From the NCBI GenBank assembly GCA_947504725.1, contig CANNHN010000005.1, positions 101,704-165,703 on the forward strand: a stretch of 64,000 nt of DNA. The letters run 5' to 3'. Positions 36,451-45,512 of this stretch are shown here, piece after piece. How positions within the stretch are numbered: position 1 is the stretch's first letter; every line of letters begins with the position of its first letter. This stretch comes from Bacteroidota bacterium (GTDB lineage Bacteria; Bacteroidota; Bacteroidia; 2-12-FULL-35-15). The position numbers and the translations under genes are program-made. The notes beneath the pieces were generated by a model that did no database searches, was not told where the DNA came from, and worked only from the letters and a program-made list of their open reading frames with translations.

Positions 36451-37482
36451 TTATTTCCTATTCGGATCCCCAAACCTCTTATCATTCAAAAACTCCCTGT
36501 CCGTCAAAGTCAACAAGAAAGCAATAATATCTTTTCTTTCTATATCACTTAACTCTCCTATCTTTTTAATTTCAGAATCCACGGTTGAATTGTGATTTTT
36601 TGATGAGTAATGATTCAATACATCTTTCAGTTTTTTGTAGCGACCATCATGCATATATGGAAATGTCATTTCGATGTTTCTTAAACTCGGAACTTTAAAT
36701 TTATAATTGTCTGTTTCCTGATTTGTGATTTTTCCTCTTCCTATATCATTCAAAGAAGTATCTGGTAAAATTCCATTATTACGATATGAATTGTCTGTAA
36801 ACAGTGGTTCTTTGTGGCAACTGGCACATTTAACTCTAAATGTTTCCAATCCATTTTTTTCCTGAATACTGAATGTGTCTTTTCCTGCATTGTATTTATC
36901 ATAACGTGAATTTGCAGAAATCATCAACCCTGTGAATTGTGCAAGTGATTTTAAAATCCGCTCCGAATTAATCACAGTGTCTTTGTAAATTTTCTTAAAC
37001 AATGCTGAATAACCCTTGCTTGCTTTTAGTTTTAAAATAATATTCGGCAAAGTTTCATTCATCTCAATCGGACTAGTAATTGGATTCAATGGTTGTACCT
37101 CTAAATTATTTACTCCTCCATCCCACATATACGTATCTCTCCAAATCATGTTTTGTAATGCCGGTACATTACGAGTTCCTATTTTGCCATCTATGCCATG
37201 GCTCAATGCATGGTCGATGTGAGCAAAGGCAGCAACTCTTTGATGACAACTCTCACAGCTGGTTGAGCTGTCTTTGGATAGAATCGGATCGTAAAATAGT
37301 TTTCTGCCCAATTCAAATTTATCTGGACTTAATGGATTCTCTGCGAAATCATAATTCGGTTTTGGAAATCCTTTCGGTATTTTTAATTCGACATCTTTTT
37401 TGGAAATGGAATATTCATTTATAAAACCCAACAGAAGAATTGAGAGAGAAATAAAAAGAAAGATGATTGTTTTGTTTTTCAT
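36451..37482 (-). CDS. Dihaem cytochrome c peroxidase / MauG-MbnH family protein
   Basis: A 343-residue periplasmic protein with an N-terminal signal/anchor and two haem c sites: CESCH near residue 76 and CASCH near residue 220. MauG/CCP segments are GIDGKIGTRNVPALQN, LNPITSPIEMNETLPN and FPYMHDGRYKKLKDVL. Members either reduce H2O2 or, like MauG and MbnH, oxidise residues of a partner protein through high-valent iron. The gene order MbnP-like then MauG-like suggests the MbnH role: oxidising a Trp of MbnP to kynurenine. It is last of the YHYH-MbnP-MauG operon, 125 bp after MbnP with an interspersed palindrome between. Confidence 0.88.
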   Translation of the reverse strand: MKNKTIIFLFISLSILLLGFINEYSISKKDVELKIPKGFPKPNYDFAENPLSPDKFELGRKLFYDPILSKDSSTSCESCHQRVAAFAHIDHALSHGIDGKIGTRNVPALQNMIWRDTYMWDGGVNNLEVQPLNPITSPIEMNETLPNIILKLKASKGYSALFKKIYKDTVINSERILKSLAQFTGLMISANSRYDKYNAGKDTFSIQEKNGLETFRVKCASCHKEPLFTDNSYRNNGILPDTSLNDIGRGKITNQETDNYKFKVPSLRNIEMTFPYMHDGRYKKLKDVLNHYSSKNHNSTVDSEIKKIGELSDIERKDIIAFLLTLTDREFLNDKRFGDPNRK

Positions 37483-37497
37483 TTTATTGTTTTAGCC

Positions 37498-37597
37498 GTC
37501 ATTGCGAGTCCCGCATTTTCGCGGGATGTGGCAATCTCTTATCATCGAGAGATTAGCCATCATCGTGAGAGATTGCTTCACTTCGCTCGCAATGACG
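37498..37597. repeat. Interspersed palindrome (GTCATTGCGAG family), copy 2
   Basis: GTCATTGCGAG at 37498 and CTCGCAATGAC at the right end, with nested hairpins (TCCCGCATTTTCGCGGGA and CAATCTC/GAGATTG pairs). It separates the MbnP-like and MauG-like genes. Confidence 0.85.
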
Positions 37598-37607
37598 CTT
37601 CGATAAA

Positions 37608-38339
37608 TCATTTCTGAATACTAAACATGTCCATATAATTATCTGCAATCATTGTTGCATTCTTTGAATCAACAATCGTTGGCAATTTCGAAAAGTCAAT
37701 AGTGGTAGGTGATTTTAAAACTTCCGCTGCATTTACATTGATTTTTAGTTCGGATATTTTACCCTTTTCAATTATCAATGGATGTTCTAATTTTAAAGTA
37801 ATAGTTCTTATTGCATTGGACGGAGCTTTATATCCACCAATGTGATATTCAAAATTTTTTCCAGTTGCTGTTGAAGAAGATGATTTCCCTTCCAGCTTCA
37901 TGAAAATGTATCCTGTGTTCCAGGTCCAGAACATTGAATTCACTGGGTCGAGAGCTCCAGATTGTGCGCCATTGCAATTGTGCAAACTATCCACACCTAC
38001 CATAAAACGCATGGAAGTATAGTTGCCTTCTGGAATAGAATTTAAAATTATTTTTTTGGAAGTTTCTATATCTTCATTGATTAGAAAATATTCTTTCGAA
38101 CGAATTTTTTTTCCATTTTCAGAAATCAATTCAATGTTGCTAATGTAGTATTTGAAGTTGTTGATATTGTAAGTCTGCCCTAATTCATTTTTGTAAACAA
38201 TGCTATCCAATTTTAGTACTAATGAATCTACATAATGATTAAAACCAATGCTCAACATCCCTTTCGAGTGTTGAGCATTGGTAGCACATGGGGATAAAAT
38301 AAAGAGTATCCCGAAGAGTATGAAAAATCGTCTTTTCAA
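37608..38339 (-). CDS. MbnP-like periplasmic copper-binding protein
   Basis: A 243-residue protein with signal peptide (MKRRFFILFGILFILSPCA). Motifs typical of MbnP are FKYYISNIELIS, GVDSLHNCNGAQSG, the Trp-rich SMFWTWNTGYIFMKLEG, FEYHIGGYKAP and a C-terminal beta sandwich. In studied MbnP proteins a Trp is oxidised to kynurenine by the MbnH haem enzyme and helps bind copper. Both Trp residues of FWTW are candidates. Its ATG directly abuts the stop of the YHYH gene, indicating translational coupling. No methanobactin genes are present. Confidence 0.85.
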   Translation of the reverse strand: MKRRFFILFGILFILSPCATNAQHSKGMLSIGFNHYVDSLVLKLDSIVYKNELGQTYNINNFKYYISNIELISENGKKIRSKEYFLINEDIETSKKIILNSIPEGNYTSMRFMVGVDSLHNCNGAQSGALDPVNSMFWTWNTGYIFMKLEGKSSSSTATGKNFEYHIGGYKAPSNAIRTITLKLEHPLIIEKGKISELKINVNAAEVLKSPTTIDFSKLPTIVDSKNATMIADNYMDMFSIQK

Positions 38340-39707
38340 TTATTTGCTTACGACTACTTTAGTCGTTTCAATTGTATCTCCGTCAGTTACTTTTACAAAA
38401 TAAATTCCTGCGTAAACAGTTTGCAAATCAAAATAGCACATGGTACTTCCTTGAAATAAGGTTGTTGTTTGAACAACTTTTCCTAATGCATCAATCAATT
38501 CTACTTTGCGGTTTGTTTGTCCACCTAAGTGTGATTGTATTGCTATCACATCGTTAGCGGGATTTGGATAAATCGTTAATTTTAAATTTTCGTTGCTTGC
38601 ATCTGCAACATCTGTAGTGGAATTATAAGTAGTTAATCCTCCAGGTAAAGCAGCACCTTCTGTTACTACTTTTGTTCCATAAAATGTTGGTCCAACAGCA
38701 TACGGATAATACGAATTCCAATTCGCATCAACCGTACAAAAGTAAGCGTATGTTCCTAGTGGATATTCTGGAGTAACACAAATTCTTCCGTTGTGCTCAT
38801 CTAAATAATCTGGTTGAGCTCCTGTAGGTGCAGTATACATATAATCTTCTCGGTAACGCCCCAATGGATAGGTTGCGTTGATTGGCGGACCAGCTGCTAC
38901 TGAACTTCCATCTGCATAAGTATTTCTTACAGTGATGCTTCTTAAACTATAACTCGATTTTATTCTTGTTAATCCTCCAGTTCCGTCAGCGTTTTTATAT
39001 CCATAAGCTCCGTATATTGGAAACCCATCATACGCATAACCAATCAATGGGGAATGAACGGTTGAATCAATCACATACAAACCATCCGCTAAATATAAAT
39101 TACAAACTGTTGAAATAACTACTTGATCTAAATTGAAAGCACTTGGATTTTGGTGGTGATGATAATTTGTTCCAGCTGGATGACCTTTTGCACAATCAAA
39201 ACCAAGCTTTTCTGCAGGAATTGCATCTCTGTTCCAAACACCGTCTCCAGGTCCACCCGGGATTGGTCCGCCTGCTTCTGCATTTGTTGAAATTTTCCAT
39301 GAAACTCCATCTCTGTAATCAAATAAAGAAACACCATTGATGAAAACACCAATTGTTCCTGCAGTTGTTGCAGTTGGTGTTCCAGTATTTTGAACTGGGT
39401 TCAAAGGGATTTTGTAAACATTAGTATTGTTCCCTCCTTGACTTGGATTGCCATCTAAATATGGTCCGATCACATAAGAAGGAATGCCACTACAACTTAC
39501 ATAAACATGAGTAGTGTTGTAAGCCACACTTTGACAATTGGCTGGCAAACTTGCATCCACAATAGGAGTGGAGCTTCCACTAATATAATGTCTACCTGTT
39601 ATTCCTGTTGTGTTTTGAATCCAACTAGAAATAGCCGGACTAACTTGAGCGATTGCGCTTGCAGAAACAAACATTGCAGCTGCTAAATGTGATAGTTTTC
39701 TTTTCAT
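38340..39707 (-). CDS. YHYH-domain secreted protein with T9SS type A sorting domain
   Basis: A 455-residue protein with signal MKRKLSHLAAAMFVSASAIA. The YHYH domain (about residues 130-330) includes GTNYHHHQNPSAF, LIGYAYDGFPIYGAYGY and EHNGRICVTPEYP, a family of unknown function rich in His and often found with copper or MbnP genes. The C-terminal 80 residues are a type A sorting domain (LTIYPNPANDVIAIQS ... KVVVSK), so T9SS carries it to the surface. A near-consensus ECF promoter lies 24 nt upstream. It is first in the operon with the MbnP-like and MauG-like genes. Confidence 0.88.
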   Translation of the reverse strand: MKRKLSHLAAAMFVSASAIAQVSPAISSWIQNTTGITGRHYISGSSTPIVDASLPANCQSVAYNTTHVYVSCSGIPSYVIGPYLDGNPSQGGNNTNVYKIPLNPVQNTGTPTATTAGTIGVFINGVSLFDYRDGVSWKISTNAEAGGPIPGGPGDGVWNRDAIPAEKLGFDCAKGHPAGTNYHHHQNPSAFNLDQVVISTVCNLYLADGLYVIDSTVHSPLIGYAYDGFPIYGAYGYKNADGTGGLTRIKSSYSLRSITVRNTYADGSSVAAGPPINATYPLGRYREDYMYTAPTGAQPDYLDEHNGRICVTPEYPLGTYAYFCTVDANWNSYYPYAVGPTFYGTKVVTEGAALPGGLTTYNSTTDVADASNENLKLTIYPNPANDVIAIQSHLGGQTNRKVELIDALGKVVQTTTLFQGSTMCYFDLQTVYAGIYFVKVTDGDTIETTKVVVSK

Positions 39708-39731
39708 GCCTTTTGTTTTTTATTTATTCTT

Positions 39732-39759
39732 TAGACGATGGTTGTTTTTAAAACTTGCA
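39732..39759 (-). promoter_or_regulatory. ECF-sigma-type promoter before the YHYH-MbnP-MauG operon
   Basis: On the minus strand: TGCAAG (39759-39754), 16 nt starting TTTTAAAAACA, then CGTCTA (39737-39732). This is the classical ECF layout (an AAC/AAG-type -35, 16-nt spacer, CGTC -10). The -10 ends 24 nt before the ATG at 39707. Two further copies are at 42124 and 43020. Confidence 0.7.
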
Positions 39760-39767
39760 CTCTATTT

Positions 39768-39838
39768 TTACCACAGATATCACAAATTTTCTCAGATTAA
39801 TTATTTTTCTGTGTTTATCTGTTTAATCTGTTGTGAAA
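39768..39838. repeat. ATCTGTG-family palindrome, copy 1
   Basis: ACCACAGATATCACAAATTT faces CTGTTTAATCTGTTGTG around a central T-rich part. It lies directly after the CotH gene stop (39841). It is related to copies at 42157-42229 and 45548-45623. Confidence 0.85.
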
Positions 39839-39840
39839 AC

Positions 39841-42102
39841 CTAATGTTCAACACTTACTTTCTTAACTTCACGATTATCCACTTTTATAAAATAAATACC
39901 ATTTGATAAACCAGAAACACTAATCGACAACGATTTTGTTTCGTTCACTTTTGCTGAATAAACCAATTGTGATAAAGGGTTGTAAATTTCTATGGTTTCA
40001 AATTCTTTATCCGAATTTATGGTAATGTCGTTGCTAGCAGGATTTGGAAACAATTGAATATTTGCATAAGAATCAGTTTCTTCAATTCCAGTAATACAAT
40101 TGAACGACATATAAGTTGGGTAATGTGTAATAAAAGAACCCGTTCCATTTGCACAGCGCGCATAAGAAGTGTTTGCCGTTTGCGCTCCGTAAGTTACACT
40201 ATCGATAACTGTTCCACTCGCGTATGATAACATTACCTGTTCTCCCGTTCCTGATAATTTAAAGTTAGCGTGTAAACCACTTTGGTTGGTATCATTATCA
40301 GCCCATACAATTAAATAACCTCCCGGTGCAATGGTTGTATTGTTTGGAAATGCCCATTTTAATGGAGTTAAATAATCATCCGATAAATAAGCATTGTCCA
40401 TGCTCACAATAGCAGATGTATTGTTATAAAATTCAATGTAGTCAGAAAAGTCGCCATTCGGATCAGTAACTGTTGCAGTATTCATCGCTAACAATTCGTT
40501 GATTGTCACATCTCCTGCACTCATCATACTGATTGTTGCAAATAAAGTGTAGTATTCATACTCTGCTCGTTGTGGCGAAAACATTCCTGCATTATTATTT
40601 TCTGCGTAAATATAATATTGAACATACGATGCGTTGATTGGAATCTCTACTCCGAATATATTATCAGCTGCTGCACCATCGCCATGCAATCCATCATCAT
40701 ACATTAAAATTCTTTTAAATGCATCTTTCACATCGTAACGATATCCTAAATAAACACCATTGATGTTTGCGTTGGTAACGGTTGCAAGAATTGTGTCATT
40801 GTTATTCATCAGCGGACTAGCTGTTGTAGCTGCAATTCCTGAAATAGTTGGAGTAGTGTAAGTGAAGTCGGTTTGTGCCATCAACCAGGTATTTCTTGCA
40901 CCCATTAAATTTGTTAATCCTGGCGCGCTTGTCATTCCTGAACTCACATCCGTTGTTAAGTTACTTGTAAATTGACTTAATGTATAGAATTTATTTGCGT
41001 CAGCTGTTACTGAAGGAGTAATTAACGTTTGTAAATTTTGTGCAGTTGTATAATAAGTACCGCTTGCAAAATTTTCTGATAAAATTGTTCGCATGTGCGC
41101 AATGTACATACGTTTATACATGGGAACAGCAAGTAGCTTTTGAACCAATGGCCAATTAGCATCACCAGAATGTAAAGTGTGTGTCATTTGTTGTTTGGCT
41201 GTTGTGGAACTTAACATGATTGTTCCAGTTTGACTGAATGTTCCGAACGATTCATTCAAATCCCAAATCGTAGTGTTGAAGCGTTGTGTTTCATCACGAT
41301 ATAGATAATAATTTTGTTTGAATCCACCGATGTAGCTATCCAAGTTTACAATCACATTGTCGAAAGCAATCATCCACAAAGCTCTATCCACATCCAATAT
41401 TTTTTCTACATTCGATGTGTAATTTTTTAAAGTGTCTGTTAGTTTAATTAAATCAGCCCATCCATAATTCGATTTTAATTCATAACCATCGTAATATAAA
41501 GTGCTGTCTGTTCCTTGGTAAACTAAATCAGGGTAATCGGTTGTGCCTGGACCAGCACCTGCAGGTGGATTGCATTTAAAGGCTGTTCCGCTGTTGGAGT
41601 AATAATGGTTTTCATTAAAATTATCTGCAATAGATTCGGAGCTGGCATAAATTCCAATCAATGTTCCGTTTATATAAACATTTGAATAATTGGACAATGG
41701 AGCTGCCATGTATTGACGCAAAATAGAATAACCTAAAACTTCTCTTACCATGGAAGGATCTTTTCCAATGTTGCTCAATTTTACATCTGTATAACCTTGG
41801 TAATCTTGATTGATAAAATCATTCAATTCGATGTGAAGTGGATTTTTTACTTGTCCAGCATTGTAAGTGCTGTTTCCTTTGTAACGTACACCTACACTGT
41901 CGAATTGAACACCATTTATTTTCACCCATTGTGCCATCAAGTTAGTTTCGTAACCTGCTTTGGCAGTATCCATTAAATAATCCCAGTTGGTTTCTGAAAA
42001 ATTGATTTCGATGGTTTGAATGGTATTGATATCGTAAAACGATTGTGCTTTTCCAAAAAAAGAAGAAAATACGAAGGCGATAAAAAGGAATATTTTTCTC
42101 AT
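39841..42102 (-). CDS. CotH-kinase-like secreted protein with lamin-tail domain and T9SS type A sorting domain
   Basis: A 753-residue protein with a signal peptide (about 1-19) and a CotH domain (about 25-400). CotH segments are VRYKGNSTYN, KNPLHIELNDF, YSNVYINGTLIGIY and the metal-binding-type WDLNESFG. A linker beta domain and a lamin-tail-like domain (about 525-640, INELLAMNTATVTDPNGDFSDYIEFYN) follow. The type A sorting domain (LFPNPASNDITINS ... VKKVSVEH) ends the protein. CotH proteins are atypical kinases of secreted proteins. An ECF-type promoter is 21 nt upstream, which ties it to the sigma factor at 43048. Confidence 0.9.
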   Translation of the reverse strand: MRKIFLFIAFVFSSFFGKAQSFYDINTIQTIEINFSETNWDYLMDTAKAGYETNLMAQWVKINGVQFDSVGVRYKGNSTYNAGQVKNPLHIELNDFINQDYQGYTDVKLSNIGKDPSMVREVLGYSILRQYMAAPLSNYSNVYINGTLIGIYASSESIADNFNENHYYSNSGTAFKCNPPAGAGPGTTDYPDLVYQGTDSTLYYDGYELKSNYGWADLIKLTDTLKNYTSNVEKILDVDRALWMIAFDNVIVNLDSYIGGFKQNYYLYRDETQRFNTTIWDLNESFGTFSQTGTIMLSSTTAKQQMTHTLHSGDANWPLVQKLLAVPMYKRMYIAHMRTILSENFASGTYYTTAQNLQTLITPSVTADANKFYTLSQFTSNLTTDVSSGMTSAPGLTNLMGARNTWLMAQTDFTYTTPTISGIAATTASPLMNNNDTILATVTNANINGVYLGYRYDVKDAFKRILMYDDGLHGDGAAADNIFGVEIPINASYVQYYIYAENNNAGMFSPQRAEYEYYTLFATISMMSAGDVTINELLAMNTATVTDPNGDFSDYIEFYNNTSAIVSMDNAYLSDDYLTPLKWAFPNNTTIAPGGYLIVWADNDTNQSGLHANFKLSGTGEQVMLSYASGTVIDSVTYGAQTANTSYARCANGTGSFITHYPTYMSFNCITGIEETDSYANIQLFPNPASNDITINSDKEFETIEIYNPLSQLVYSAKVNETKSLSISVSGLSNGIYFIKVDNREVKKVSVEH

Positions 42103-42123
42103 AGAATATATTGATTTTACTTT

Positions 42124-42151
42124 TAGACGATGATTGTTTTTAAAACTTGCG
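42124..42151 (-). promoter_or_regulatory. ECF-sigma-type promoter before the CotH gene
   Basis: On the minus strand: CGCAAG (42151-42146), a 16-nt spacer starting TTTTAAAAACA, then CGTCTA (42129-42124). The -10 ends 21 nt before the ATG at 42102. It is almost identical to the element at 39732-39759. Confidence 0.7.
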
Positions 42152-42156
42152 GATGT

Positions 42157-42229
42157 TTTACCACAGAAATCACAGATTTTCTCAGATTTATTATTTTTCT
42201 GTGTTTATCTGTGTAATCTGTGGTGAAAA
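42157..42229. repeat. ATCTGTG-family palindrome, copy 2
   Basis: ACCACAGAAATCACAGATTT faces TCTGTGTAATCTGTGGTG. It starts 2 bp after the stop (42232) of the CpxP/CnrX-like gene on the minus strand. Confidence 0.88.
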
Positions 42230-42231
42230 AA

Positions 42232-42720
42232 TTAATGTTTAGGAGGTCGAGCCCCTTTCGGAGCAAAAAGCCTCCCCAACTCATCCACCAACTCATTAAA
42301 ATAGCCAACCTGTTCTTCTTTACACAATTTTTTAATCGCATTAAAATGGTCGAAATTTAAATCTTCAATTGCTTTTTGATTGTTGGCGATTTCCAAAACC
42401 AATGAATCATTTTGTCTTTGATTAATCGTATCTCCTTTTAATAAGGAGAACAATTCATCATGTAATTCTTTTGATGCTTCATGCAATTCATCCGTTTTTG
42501 TTTTGTGATCCACGATTAATAATTCATATTCTTTTTGTTGCATCTCATCAAAATGCAAACGCTCAATGATGATTTGTTTTGGGCCTTCACCTTTTGGATC
42601 GCCATGCGGTGGATGCATGGGTGGAGGAGATGATTTTCCAAGGAACATCATGCCTAAAATTCCTAAATTTAATAGGAGTAGGCCAACGACTGCAATGGTT
42701 AATAATTTCGTTCTGTTCAT
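42232..42720 (-). CDS. Periplasmic metal-sensor-like protein (CpxP/Spy/CnrX type)
   Basis: A 162-residue protein with one N-terminal membrane anchor (residues 7-27), then a His/Met/Pro-rich linker (PPPMHPPHGDPKGEGPKQ). A helical hairpin domain follows with ERLHFDEMQQKEYELLIVDHK and KLCKEEQVGYFNELVDELGR. Layout and helices fit the Metal_resist/CpxP superfamily, which includes CnrX, the periplasmic Ni/Co sensor that controls the anti-sigma factor CnrY and sigma factor CnrH. Here too it follows a small membrane protein and an ECF sigma factor. The start is 4 bp after the putative anti-sigma gene. Confidence 0.75.
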   Translation of the reverse strand: MNRTKLLTIAVVGLLLLNLGILGMMFLGKSSPPPMHPPHGDPKGEGPKQIIIERLHFDEMQQKEYELLIVDHKTKTDELHEASKELHDELFSLLKGDTINQRQNDSLVLEIANNQKAIEDLNFDHFNAIKKLCKEEQVGYFNELVDELGRLFAPKGARPPKH

Positions 42721-42724
42721 TTAA

Positions 42725-43012
42725 TTAGTAGTTGATAGAATTTGTATTCACTAAATTGTATGCACTTGCAATTTCCTGCACTTCTGTTCTGTTGCTTGAA
42801 GTTGAACCTGTTTTCTTCATTGCCTGAAAATTCAATACAGCCAACAAAGCAAAAGATGCCGCTGCTAGCCATACCAGTTTCATAGGAGTATATTCTATTT
42901 CTCCTGAACCAAGTTTGTTTAAGATCTTGTTGTATAAAAAAGGATTAGCCTCGGCAGATTTTACATCATCCAGACTATTCATCACTTCATTTATCCATTT
43001 TTCTTTGTTCAT
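42725..43012 (-). CDS. Small single-pass membrane protein, putative anti-sigma factor
   Basis: An approximately 95-residue protein with a cytoplasmic N-terminal helix (KWINEVMNSLDDVKSAEANPFLYNKIL, residues about 5-35), one membrane helix (MKLVWLAAASFALLAVLNF, about 45-63) and a short periplasmic tail. It is placed between an ECF sigma gene and a CnrX/CpxP-like gene, as an anti-sigma factor would be. It has no clear ZAS zinc motif. Two starts are possible, ATG at 43018 and ATG at 43012. I prefer 43012 because the ECF-type -10 box ends at 43020 and the transcript would begin near there, giving a leaderless message. Confidence 0.65.
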   Translation of the reverse strand: MNKEKWINEVMNSLDDVKSAEANPFLYNKILNKLGSGEIEYTPMKLVWLAAASFALLAVLNFQAMKKTGSTSSNRTEVQEIASAYNLVNTNSINY

Positions 43013-43019
43013 ATCCATT

Positions 43020-43047
43020 TTGACGATATTAAATTGTAAAACTTGCG
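43020..43047 (-). promoter_or_regulatory. ECF-sigma-type promoter between the sigma gene and the anti-sigma gene
   Basis: On the minus strand: CGCAAG (43047-43042), 16 nt starting TTTTACAATTT, then CGTCAA (43025-43020). It fills the gap between the sigma gene stop (43048) and the anti-sigma start. Outside the -35/-10 boxes and the TTTT run it differs from the two other copies, so its match is not a recent duplication. Confidence 0.65.
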
Positions 43048-43587
43048 CTAACTTTTATAATAATTTGATAATTCTTTCTGTAAATTCTGTTTTGCCCTAA
43101 ACAAAAGGGATTCCACGGAGGAAACACTCAGTTGCATCACCTCCGAAATCTCAGCATAACTCAATCCTTCCACCTTGGATAAGATAAATGCGGTTTTTTG
43201 ATTTTCTGGAAGTGAATGAATCGCTTTAAATAAAATGGCTGAGTTTTCCTTTTGTTCCAGAGCAACTCCAGGATGATAAAAGTCTGGTGAGTCATGACGC
43301 AATTCTCCAGCATCATTAAACAAACTGCTCATAAAAGCAAATCGTTTTTTGCGATTCTTACTTTTAATAAAATCCAATGATTTGTTGATGGAGATGCGGT
43401 AAATCCAAGTACTTAAACTGGATTTTCCTTCAAAAGTGTTGATGGAACGATGCACTTCTACAAATACATCCTGCGTTACTTCTTCAGCATCTTCATGATT
43501 CTGCAAATAGGAGATAACTGTATTAAAAACTTTGTTTTTATACGTCTCATAAATTTCCTGAAATGAAGGAAGATTATTTGTTTGCAT
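43048..43587 (-). CDS. ECF-type RNA polymerase sigma factor
   Basis: A 179-residue sigma-70 family protein with regions 2 and 4 only. Region 2 (about 9-75) includes VISYLQNHEDAEEVTQDVFVEVH and STWIYRISINKSLD. Region 4 (about 122-172) includes LPENQKTAFILSKVEGLSYAEI and SVSSVESLLFRAKQNLQK. It directs transcription of a dedicated regulon. Its own promoter looks housekeeping (TATATTFG-like box is TATATTTG, 43600-43593, 6 bp before the ATG, suggesting a leaderless mRNA). Three ECF-type promoters sit downstream in front of the anti-sigma, CotH and YHYH genes. Confidence 0.9.
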   Translation of the reverse strand: MQTNNLPSFQEIYETYKNKVFNTVISYLQNHEDAEEVTQDVFVEVHRSINTFEGKSSLSTWIYRISINKSLDFIKSKNRKKRFAFMSSLFNDAGELRHDSPDFYHPGVALEQKENSAILFKAIHSLPENQKTAFILSKVEGLSYAEISEVMQLSVSSVESLLFRAKQNLQKELSNYYKS

Positions 43588-43592
43588 TAAAA

Positions 43593-43600
43593 CAAATATA
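43593..43600 (-). promoter_or_regulatory. Housekeeping -7 box before the ECF sigma gene
   Basis: TATATTTG on the minus strand matches TAnnTTTG. It ends 5 bp before the ATG, so the transcript would be nearly leaderless. No convincing -33 TTTG was found. Confidence 0.4.
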
Positions 43601-43631: not shown

Positions 43632-44060
43632 TTAGTTATCCATCCAACAATCTTCTTCTTGCAGTTTTTTGAAAACGAAATATTTGTTTCGCCCACTTGT
43701 GAATGTATATATCGTTGCGATAACCCCAGGTATAAATAGAAAGAGTTCACCACTTTCCGTAAATTCAAATATATGTGTTAAAAATACTGCAAAAAGAAAA
43801 AGAAAAAATATTATATAAGTATAAGGTGTAGCGGAAAATTGATAAGTGATTATTTTTCCTTTTTTAACTTCAATTTCAGTTTCACCTGACCGATAACCTT
43901 GTTTAGCTTTTATAATATACTTGCCTGGAGTTAATTCTAGCTCTTGTCTGTTTTCTTTAATTGTATTGATAATAAATTCATTGTTGACATAAATTCCCAC
44001 ACTATAGCTAGATTCTGAAAATCGTTTTTTCCTTTCTATTATTATTTTTTCCTTATTCAT
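43632..44060 (-). CDS. Membrane protein with PEGA-like N-terminal domain
   Basis: A 142-residue protein. Residues about 15-75 (YSVGIYVNNEFIINTIKE, ELTPGKYIIKAKQGYRSGE, EIEVKKGK) look like a PEGA-type beta domain, which normally decorates the cell surface. Two hydrophobic helices (about 80-125) and a short polar tail follow. There is no signal peptide, so topology is uncertain. Its ATG is 7 bp downstream of the HEPN-like gene stop, and the two may be one unit. Function unknown. Confidence 0.6.
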   Translation of the reverse strand: MNKEKIIIERKKRFSESSYSVGIYVNNEFIINTIKENRQELELTPGKYIIKAKQGYRSGETEIEVKKGKIITYQFSATPYTYIIFFLFLFAVFLTHIFEFTESGELFLFIPGVIATIYTFTSGRNKYFVFKKLQEEDCWMDN

Positions 44061-44067
44061 TTAACTT

Positions 44068-44583
44068 TTAGACGTCTATAAACGCTTTATATATTTTATC
44101 GTTAGGGTTAGTAAATTCGTTTTGTTCAATACGTCTAATAACTTCTTCGCAAGCAGATTTGAAGTCATCATAAAGGTCCTCACAGCAAATGACCAGTCGA
44201 CCATTTTGATTTACATTTTTGTGTCTCCATCCTCTTTCACTCGCTTCTTTTCTAAATGTAAGTTCAATTTTTCCCTTTGGTTTAAATGCATGAGCCATTC
44301 CATTTCTGAGGTTGTAGGCAAAATTAAATTCAGGACTTATAAAAGGTTCATATGACTTCATTAAGTCAATAACTGCTGCCTGGATGTTTTCTTTTCCTTT
44401 TTGGGGAGTATCCCAATTGGGATTTTGGCTGCATTGTATGCATTTTCCAAGAAACTCAATTCCAATACCAATTAATCCAAATCCTATATAATAATATCCC
44501 ATTGAAATAATCTGTCCTAGATTTTCAATATAAATTTTGTGAATAAAATCTTTAGGAAATAGTTTGTCGTCTAATTGTTTCAT
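44068..44583 (-). CDS. Uncharacterised protein with HEPN-like RNGMAH motif
   Basis: A 171-residue protein from the ATG at 44583 (MKQLDDKLFP). The frame is open to an ATG at 44625, but that would overlap the WD40 gene. It is predicted mainly helical, with a hydrophobic helix (YYYIGFGLIGIGIEFLG), a CxxC (KCIQCSQ) and AYNLRNGMAHAFKPKG. The R-x4-H spacing matches the active motif of HEPN RNases and is common in abortive-infection proteins, but the rest is too divergent to call a nuclease. It is next to a PEGA-like membrane protein gene. Function unknown. Confidence 0.6.
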   Translation of the reverse strand: MKQLDDKLFPKDFIHKIYIENLGQIISMGYYYIGFGLIGIGIEFLGKCIQCSQNPNWDTPQKGKENIQAAVIDLMKSYEPFISPEFNFAYNLRNGMAHAFKPKGKIELTFRKEASERGWRHKNVNQNGRLVICCEDLYDDFKSACEEVIRRIEQNEFTNPNDKIYKAFIDV

Positions 44584-44609
44584 TGCTACTTGTTTGTTAA
44601 ATACATAAT

Positions 44610-45512
44610 CTATTTTACCTCCCAAACCATCACGGCCCTATCATCACCCGTAGAAACAAGATACTTATCCGTCCACAATAATTTATTTACGGAGTTCACA
44701 TGTCCGTCATAATTTTCTTTGTTAATGCGGACTTGTAATTCAAAGGTTTCGGCATCCCAAATTTTTACGGTTTTGTCTCTGCTGGCTGTTGCAAATAATT
44801 TTGCATCGGGAGAAAATACAATATCGTAAATGGCGTAATTGTGAGCAGGAATGCTTTTGATAAGTGTATAGCTTTTTGCATCCCAAATGTTTAAGTGGGC
44901 ATCTCTTCCTCCTGTTAAAATCAAATTTCCATCAGGAGAATAGCAAATGATATTGGCAGAAAGTGTATGAGCGACAAACGTTTTCTTTTCTTCTAAAGTG
45001 GTTAAATCAAAAATACGGATGTTGCAATCACCACTTGCTAATGCTATTTCGTTGTTGTGATAATTGAATGCTATGCTTCTGACTTTTTCTGCGCAAAGCT
45101 TTTTTATTTTAATTAAAGAAAGTGTTTCTAAAGAACAGATAGCGAAATTCCCATCGCCACCAGCAGAATAAAAACAATTTGTTTGGGCAGAATATTTTAA
45201 ATCAAAAATGGAAGAAGTATGGTGTTGTAATATTTTCAATTCTGTTTTCTTTTCTAAATCTAAAACATGAATACTTCCTGCAGATGTTCCAACCAATAAA
45301 ATTTGTTTTTCTGGAATATGGCAGATCGCATATACAATGGATGGAAATTGAGCAGCAAACTTTTCGGGTTGCAAGGTATCCAAGTTCCAAAGTGCAAGAA
45401 ACTTATCGCTGCTGCCAGAGAAAAAATGTGAGGACGATGCACCTTGTTCCAGAGCATAAACTGCTCCGCTGTGTCCAGTTAAAGTACCTACTTTTTTGAC
45501 CTCAAGTTTCAT
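44610..45512 (-). CDS. WD40-repeat protein
   Basis: A 300-residue protein made of about seven WD40 blades (for example HTLSANIICYSPDGNLIL, LNIWDAKSYTLIKSIPAH, FATASRDKTVKIWDAET, VMVWEVK at the end), enough for one complete propeller. It has no signal peptide and no fused domain, so it is a cytosolic scaffold of unknown partner. Stand-alone WD40 proteins of this size are frequent in Bacteroidota. It follows the chitinase gene by 109 bp that carry an ATCTGTG palindrome. Confidence 0.88.
   Translation of the reverse strand: MKLEVKKVGTLTGHSGAVYALEQGASSSHFFSGSSDKFLALWNLDTLQPEKFAAQFPSIVYAICHIPEKQILLVGTSAGSIHVLDLEKKTELKILQHHTSSIFDLKYSAQTNCFYSAGGDGNFAICSLETLSLIKIKKLCAEKVRSIAFNYHNNEIALASGDCNIRIFDLTTLEEKKTFVAHTLSANIICYSPDGNLILTGGRDAHLNIWDAKSYTLIKSIPAHNYAIYDIVFSPDAKLFATASRDKTVKIWDAETFELQVRINKENYDGHVNSVNKLLWTDKYLVSTGDDRAVMVWEVK

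Follow-up and report, generated by a model that had tools for sequence, protein, structure and literature searches.

What reads the three copies of a short two-block DNA element that stand before gene starts downstream of an extracytoplasmic function (ECF) sigma factor gene in this 64,000-nt stretch of a Bacteroidota genome (contig CANNHN010000005.1; the whole stretch is called the window below)? An initial annotation took the copies for promoters of the neighboring sigma factor, with anti-sigma/sensor, CotH, and YHYH-MbnP-MauG genes as its targets, and this is supported by conservation in other genomes and by out-of-sample searches. Comparison shows motif, targets, and conservation, and thereby ties the element to a clade of sigma factors and its targets, whose promoter it would be. 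The cluster is likely to be an ECF regulon that responds to a signal and represents an undescribed type spread across Bacteroidota, composed of an ECF sigma factor, a one-helix anti-sigma factor, and a CnrX-fold sensor, with GMARG-N16-CGTCWA promoters. Across genomes the commonest predicted target is YHYH, and its partners are MbnP-MbnH-like proteins, SCO1, a multicopper oxidase, or CotH. The features of the cluster are as follows.

43593-43600, minus strand: TATATTTG, a housekeeping -7-like element 5 nt upstream of the sigma ATG
43048-43587, minus strand: ECF sigma factor, regions 2 and 4 only, 179 amino acids (Pfam)
43020-43047, minus strand: predicted ECF promoter 1 (GCAAG-N16-CGTCAA) for anti-sigma and sensor genes, adjoining the sigma stop codon
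42725-43012, minus strand: candidate one-helix anti-sigma factor, 95 amino acids, start at the second ATG (homologue alignment)
42232-42720, minus strand: candidate membrane-anchored sensor with CnrX/CpxP fold (AlphaFold model, PDB fold match, Spy profile match)
42156-42229, strand not applicable: 74-nt palindromic intergenic repeat, copy 1, upstream of and outside the CotH promoter
42124-42151, minus strand: predicted ECF promoter 2, for CotH (pattern match and relatives)
39841-42102, minus strand: CotH-family atypical kinase-like protein with lamin-tail domain and type IX secretion system (T9SS) sorting tail (Pfam, PDB)
39766-39839, strand not applicable: 74-nt repeat, copy 2, upstream of the YHYH promoter
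39732-39759, minus strand: predicted ECF promoter 3, for YHYH-MbnP-MauG (pattern match and distant loci)
38340-39707, minus strand: YHYH-domain protein with T9SS tail (Pfam)
37608-38339, minus strand: MbnP-family protein whose TTG start adjoins the YHYH stop (Pfam)
36451-37482, minus strand: MbnH/MauG-like dihaem protein (CCP_MauG Pfam match, two CxxCH)

Three sites and their placement

Exactly three places in the window match [CT]GCAAGTTTT-N12-CGTC[TA]A (43020-43047, 42124-42151, and 39732-39759), all of them on the minus strand, and 100 dinucleotide shuffles of the window gave no match, so the sites and their 16-nt spacer are where they had been placed. GCAAG-N16-CGTC alone finds the same three against 0.12 expected, and exact GCAAGTTTT-N12-CGTC matches nowhere else in the whole 3.4-Mb genome, which was scanned by sequence pattern rather than by weight matrix. 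The looser GMARG-N16-CGTCWA returns the three window sites and four scattered matches, a total no higher than that of a reversed-pattern control; two of the extra matches are in long open frames, L141 is inside a ribosomal-protein-like frame, and the fourth (L140) is close to the end of an opposite-strand frame. YHYH and MbnP are each encoded once in the genome, in this cluster. The description of the regulon as self-contained thus fits this genome, with the only exact sites and the sole YHYH and MbnP genes, but not others, in which YHYH and multicopper oxidase genes remote from the sigma gene have sites.

The sites have a -35 block, a CGTC-type -10 block, and a fixed spacing of about 16 nt, and they stand before the sigma factor's own operon and its targets, as ECF promoters do, although the -35 is GMARG and lacks the AAC core general in ECF promoters. 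A scan for sigma-70 promoters and terminators gave counts not above those of shuffles. Placement right before gene starts holds for CotH and YHYH and needs a correction for the anti-sigma gene: promoter 1 follows the sigma stop without a gap, 3 nt separate its CGTC from the called ATG (43018), and the starts of relatives align with a second ATG at 43012, 9 nt past CGTC. The latter is probably the true start, from which the anti-sigma mRNA would be nearly leaderless. A promoter in this position also implies negative feedback.

Conservation in the family and across the phylum

The sigma factor is present in 14 of 36 same-family genomes, with orthologues 75-96% identical, and most close relatives share the gene order sigma, anti-sigma, sensor, (CotH), YHYH, MbnP, MauG, some having MbnP-MauG ahead of YHYH or no CotH. 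The scan of related genomes that the initial annotation had suggested finds the site again before anti-sigma, CotH, and YHYH genes: it is at all close-clade sigma/anti-sigma junctions (as GCAAG or GCAGG), before CotH in 5/6 other close-family loci having that gene, and before YHYH in most loci where YHYH is not packed directly behind CotH. The sigma locus accounts for 17 of the 22 strict sites in these 36 genomes.

A scan of a genome collection yielded 80 loci with sigma homologues (1.3 Mb), most with homologous anti-sigma and sensor genes downstream. The junction consensus is aNCG[AC]A[AG]G-N16-CGTC[TA]AA, with CATC in Flavobacteriaceae, and a generalized site is present at 77% of 93 junctions compared with 2% of random windows under the same scorer, with 16-nt spacing in 78 of 82. 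The junction site overlaps the last sigma codons in some clades and follows the stop in others, and protein conservation is therefore no explanation for it. With the strict motif, the 80 loci yield 54 sites; 30 of them are junction sites, and the remaining 24 are all on the sigma strand. A called open reading frame (ORF) is downstream of 22 of the latter (17 YHYH, of the large T9SS type or the small lipoprotein type, 3 multicopper oxidase, 1 CotH in L097, and 1 in L138, where the ORF occupies the position expected for the anti-sigma gene). Sites are rare before inner operon genes (MbnP 1/33, MauG 0/35, sensor 2/76) compared with YHYH (14/27). YHYH is within 10 kb downstream of sigma in 40/64 loci and upstream in 4/61, MbnP is downstream in 29 loci and MauG in 30, and the small YHYH genes are in operons with a MORN-repeat protein and SCO1/SenC. 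Partner sets swap many times on the sigma tree. An apparent site before CotH in L098 proved to be a scorer artefact.

Whole-genome searches that used no gene information point to the same targets. Seven genomes without a recognized target beside sigma have ten CGAAGG-N16-CGTCWA sites, six at junctions and four remote, of which three directly precede YHYH and one a multicopper oxidase; a search with the Flavobacteriaceae variant gave two off-junction sites, both before YHYH operons. Together, the six off-junction sites from these pattern-only searches precede five YHYH genes or operons and one multicopper oxidase. CGAAGGATT-N13-CGTCTA has three matches in 396 phylum-wide genomes, two of them directly before YHYH. 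Site counts in the 7-genome and 396-genome searches are close to those of reversed-pattern controls, and the evidence is in the location of the sites, not their number.

Several other features of these loci are of note. Genome G031 has one remote site directly before a small lipoprotein gene (L165, about 1500) and a second 190 nt from another such gene (L162, about 1500), both plausible regulon members. Some operons include genes for sulfatase and arylsulfotransferase with T9SS tails (L081:14790-16373, L108:16795-18432, L098:16628-18250), and Ulvibacterium marinum (L185) has a divergent site-bearing operon in which the first gene codes for an EF-hand-like protein and the next ones for a small YHYH and a protein resembling MORN-repeat proteins. 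The system also turns up in records under the names Ignavibacteriae and Kapaibacterium (L065, L125, L066, L067), and may extend beyond Bacteroidia if binning is right.

The 74-nt repeat is palindromic (ACCACAG...CTGTGGT) and is in both the gap before CotH and that before YHYH (42156-42229 and 39766-39839). In some relatives these gaps hold other repeats, suggesting that elements resembling repetitive extragenic palindromes are colonizing the operon. The MbnP-MauG gap (37483-37607) contains a different repeat-like sequence (GCGAGCGAAGTGAAGCAATCTC...GACTCGCAATGACG), which is shared with relatives L047 and L048.

Sigma factor, partners, and products

Pfam matches confirm the gene identities given earlier for the ECF sigma factor, CotH with its lamin-tail domain, YHYH, MbnP, and CCP_MauG. 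The sigma factor matches Sigma70_r2 (2e-16) and Sigma70_r4_2 (1e-17), having regions 2 and 4 only, as is typical of the ECF kind to which the system belongs; a functionally unassigned group of the published ECF classification may already contain it. Among structures, its profile ranks AlgU, RpoE, and SigW first and CnrH last. The arrangement TATATTTG-N5-ATG before the gene is kept in 8 close-family loci, and the -7 box is clear in that family only (10/93 loci overall). Because it fits the Bacteroidota housekeeping -7 consensus, TAnnTTTG, 5 nt before the ATG, a housekeeping promoter, and not its own, probably drives constitutive expression of the sigma factor in this genome, and the spacing suggests a leaderless mRNA. 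A second sigma copy, 42% identical and accompanied by MbnP-MauG-YHYH, is found in L059 (G031 C13), in the same genome as L049; a perfect site is upstream of this sigma gene itself, indicating autoregulation in some lineages. In this genome, the interval from the sigma gene to a conserved WD40-repeat gene (43632-44625) encodes a DUF2846-like membrane protein and an unnamed 185-amino-acid protein; close relatives lack these or have different ones.

The periplasmic protein first described as CpxP/CnrX-like has only a sub-threshold Pfam match, to Metal_resist, but its fold supports the likeness to CnrX. Against the PDB, its AlphaFold model (pLDDT 89.7) has CnrX or NccX as all of its top 15 folds (prob 1.00, TMt 0.59-0.79, with modest E-values of 0.04-0.2), and its sequence profile reaches Spy. 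Asn18, in the membrane helix, and His72 are invariant and His125 and Cys133 are conserved; no Met is. The candidate anti-sigma factor, in an alignment of 38 homologues, has one membrane helix and a C-terminal periplasmic tail, and its most conserved residue is likewise an Asn in the membrane helix (34/38). It has no Pfam match, hence no recognizable class I anti-sigma (ASDI)/zf-HC2 domain, and its profile has only chance matches in the PDB, none of them to CnrY. The conserved membrane Asn of both proteins suggests that their two membrane helices are in contact, and the sensor would work together with the anti-sigma factor.

These components follow the same three-part logic as CnrYXH of Cupriavidus metallidurans (ECF sigma CnrH, anti-sigma CnrY, metal sensor CnrX), in which a sigma-dependent promoter, cnrYp, also precedes the anti-sigma gene (PMC9045368). 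Common to both are this promoter, a short one-helix anti-sigma factor, and a sensor fold with an N-terminal membrane helix. The system is CnrYXH-like but not a member of CnrYXH, and the analogy originally drawn with CnrX stands for the sensor fold and not for metal ligands, anti-sigma sequence, gene order, or target genes: CnrX has a Met ligand (Met123; PMC7689651) where the sensor here has His/Cys instead, the anti-sigma factor has no sequence match to CnrY, the order is sigma-antisigma-sensor rather than Y-X-H, the sigma factor is nearer AlgU/RpoE/SigW than CnrH, and the targets are YHYH, MbnP-MbnH, SCO1, multicopper oxidase, and CotH rather than a resistance-nodulation-division (RND) efflux pump. 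ASDI/ECF pairs likewise have a membrane anti-sigma factor encoded beside its ECF, although the candidate here has no anti-sigma domain recognized by Pfam. Only 6% of Bacteroidetes ECFs have an ASDI neighbor (PMC7406223), so unrecognized anti-sigma types are expected in Bacteroidota, and the present protein is a candidate.

Among the products, CotH matches PF08757 with 152 bits against a cut-off of 23.8 and Bacillus CotH in the PDB at 2e-9, a likeness to the spore-coat kinase family from which it differs in that the predicted kinase would be T9SS-secreted, has a lamin-tail domain, and is in an ECF regulon. YHYH has an AlphaFold prediction (24 homologues) with pLDDT 51. MbnP matches PF20243 with 184.9 bits against a cut-off of 27, has a WxW motif (W138/W140) invariant in 46 homologues, and as a single sequence has no match in the PDB. 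The MauG-like protein has two CxxCH (C76-H80 and C219-H223) and Tyr292 (44/44 aligned letters), which aligns with the axial-position Met of bacterial cytochrome c peroxidase (CcP) segments. This Met is a haem ligand in CcPs, MauG and MbnH use Tyr at the same position, and MbnH converts an MbnP Trp to kynurenine, creating a copper site. The MauG/MbnH-like enzyme probably oxidizes a WxW tryptophan of MbnP in the same manner, building a copper site. The two adjacent genes, with WxW and two CxxCH, thus resemble the MbnP-MbnH pair (TIGR04052/TIGR04039, PF20243) but are under an ECF sigma factor with a CnrX-fold sensor, not under a FecIR-like MbnIR, and have no methanobactin genes alongside. Conservation of the pair extends well outside the methanobactin producers, with a role that was unknown as of 2013 (PMC3621798).

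Signal, alternatives, and significance

The sigma factor would be made constitutively and kept at the inner membrane by the short anti-sigma factor in complex with the periplasmic sensor. A periplasmic signal at the His/Cys site of the sensor, most likely copper (or another metal) or oxidizing stress, would free it to read the GMARG-N16-CGTCWA promoters of the anti-sigma/sensor operon (negative feedback), CotH, and YHYH-MbnP-MauG. YHYH and CotH would be exported to the cell surface by the T9SS, and MbnP and the MauG/MbnH-like enzyme would act in the envelope.

Several points weigh against this account. Promoter activity, sigma binding, and the inducer are predictions from sequence comparison; the junction scorer was shaped by the data, with controls run under the same scorer and the later searches using the DNA pattern alone; about a quarter of the sigma homologues with enough sequence (15/64) have no known target adjacent; and the third of the unbiased phylum-wide matches (L176) has no target gene behind it. 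The anti-sigma assignment comes from position, size, one helix, and co-conservation; the sensor lacks both the Met ligand and the conserved N-terminal histidines of CnrX; and, differing in this from the MbnP-MbnH pair, MbnP (57.4 vs 140 bits) and the MbnH-like MauG protein (209 vs 363 bits) are under the NCBIfam equivalog cut-offs. As the promoter role is read from sequence, and two of the three window sites adjoin a duplicated repeat, the sites could instead serve a separate DNA-binding regulator as operators, or have a role in processing or structure, but this is very improbable given the two-block layout with fixed 16-nt spacing and CGTC-type -10, the single orientation without dyad symmetry, and the presence of the site at the end of the sigma gene across the phylum and at remote target genes in sigma-bearing genomes. 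The repeat raises another possibility, as the CotH site agrees with the YHYH site at 25/28 positions and each is directly downstream of a copy (the copies being 93% identical): the two may stem from a single copying event and do not count as independent of one another, whereas the anti-sigma site and those of relatives are independent. A reading in which a mobile repeat copied the anti-sigma promoter and carried it to both places, without any functional regulon, is nonetheless hardly credible and already contradicted by close relatives, distant loci, and remote sites; the repeat is outside the site, relatives with other or no repeats keep sites before CotH and YHYH, and YHYH sites of distant relatives have no repeat.

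The main rival to a copper response accepts the ECF regulon but takes the signal to be envelope protein or oxidative stress, as with Spy/CpxP, and the output to be surface modification, the copper proteins being incidental. The sensor's Spy match and missing Met ligand, a conserved Cys133 that could act as a redox switch, and outputs that include CotH, arylsulfotransferase, and sulfatase all agree with this, which is conceivable if rather doubtful, as MbnP-MbnH, SCO1/SenC, and multicopper oxidases recur as partners, His72 is invariant and His125 conserved, and the metal sensors CnrX and NccX are the best fold matches. Copper is the likeliest theme because MbnP WxW, the MbnH-like Tyr, SCO1, and multicopper oxidases recur; the signal itself is presumed. 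The fullest form of the copper interpretation, which we hold tentatively, is of a phylum-wide undescribed envelope copper regulon with a new class of one-helix anti-sigma factors, a His/Cys CnrX-fold copper sensor, and YHYH as a surface copper-handling protein with interchangeable partners (kynurenine-forming MbnP-MbnH, SCO1, multicopper oxidase, and CotH).

The open-access papers searched yielded no description of the regulon, and none joins YHYH with CotH, MbnP, an ECF sigma factor, or copper, an absence that speaks only weakly for novelty. Bacteroidota have many ECF sigma factors, few of them with known regulators or promoters; here comparison alone provides one clade with a promoter consensus, an anti-sigma factor and sensor as partners, and a predictable target that holds in whole-genome searches. 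The system is present in culturable Flavobacterium and Algoriphagus, cultured carriers being Flavobacterium paronense CECT 8460 (L108), F. lotistagni CYK-4 (L098), and Algoriphagus chordae (L093), and so is open to testing. It also gives CotH, the uncharacterized YHYH proteins, and the non-methanotroph MbnP-MbnH pairs a shared regulatory, and probably copper-related, context.

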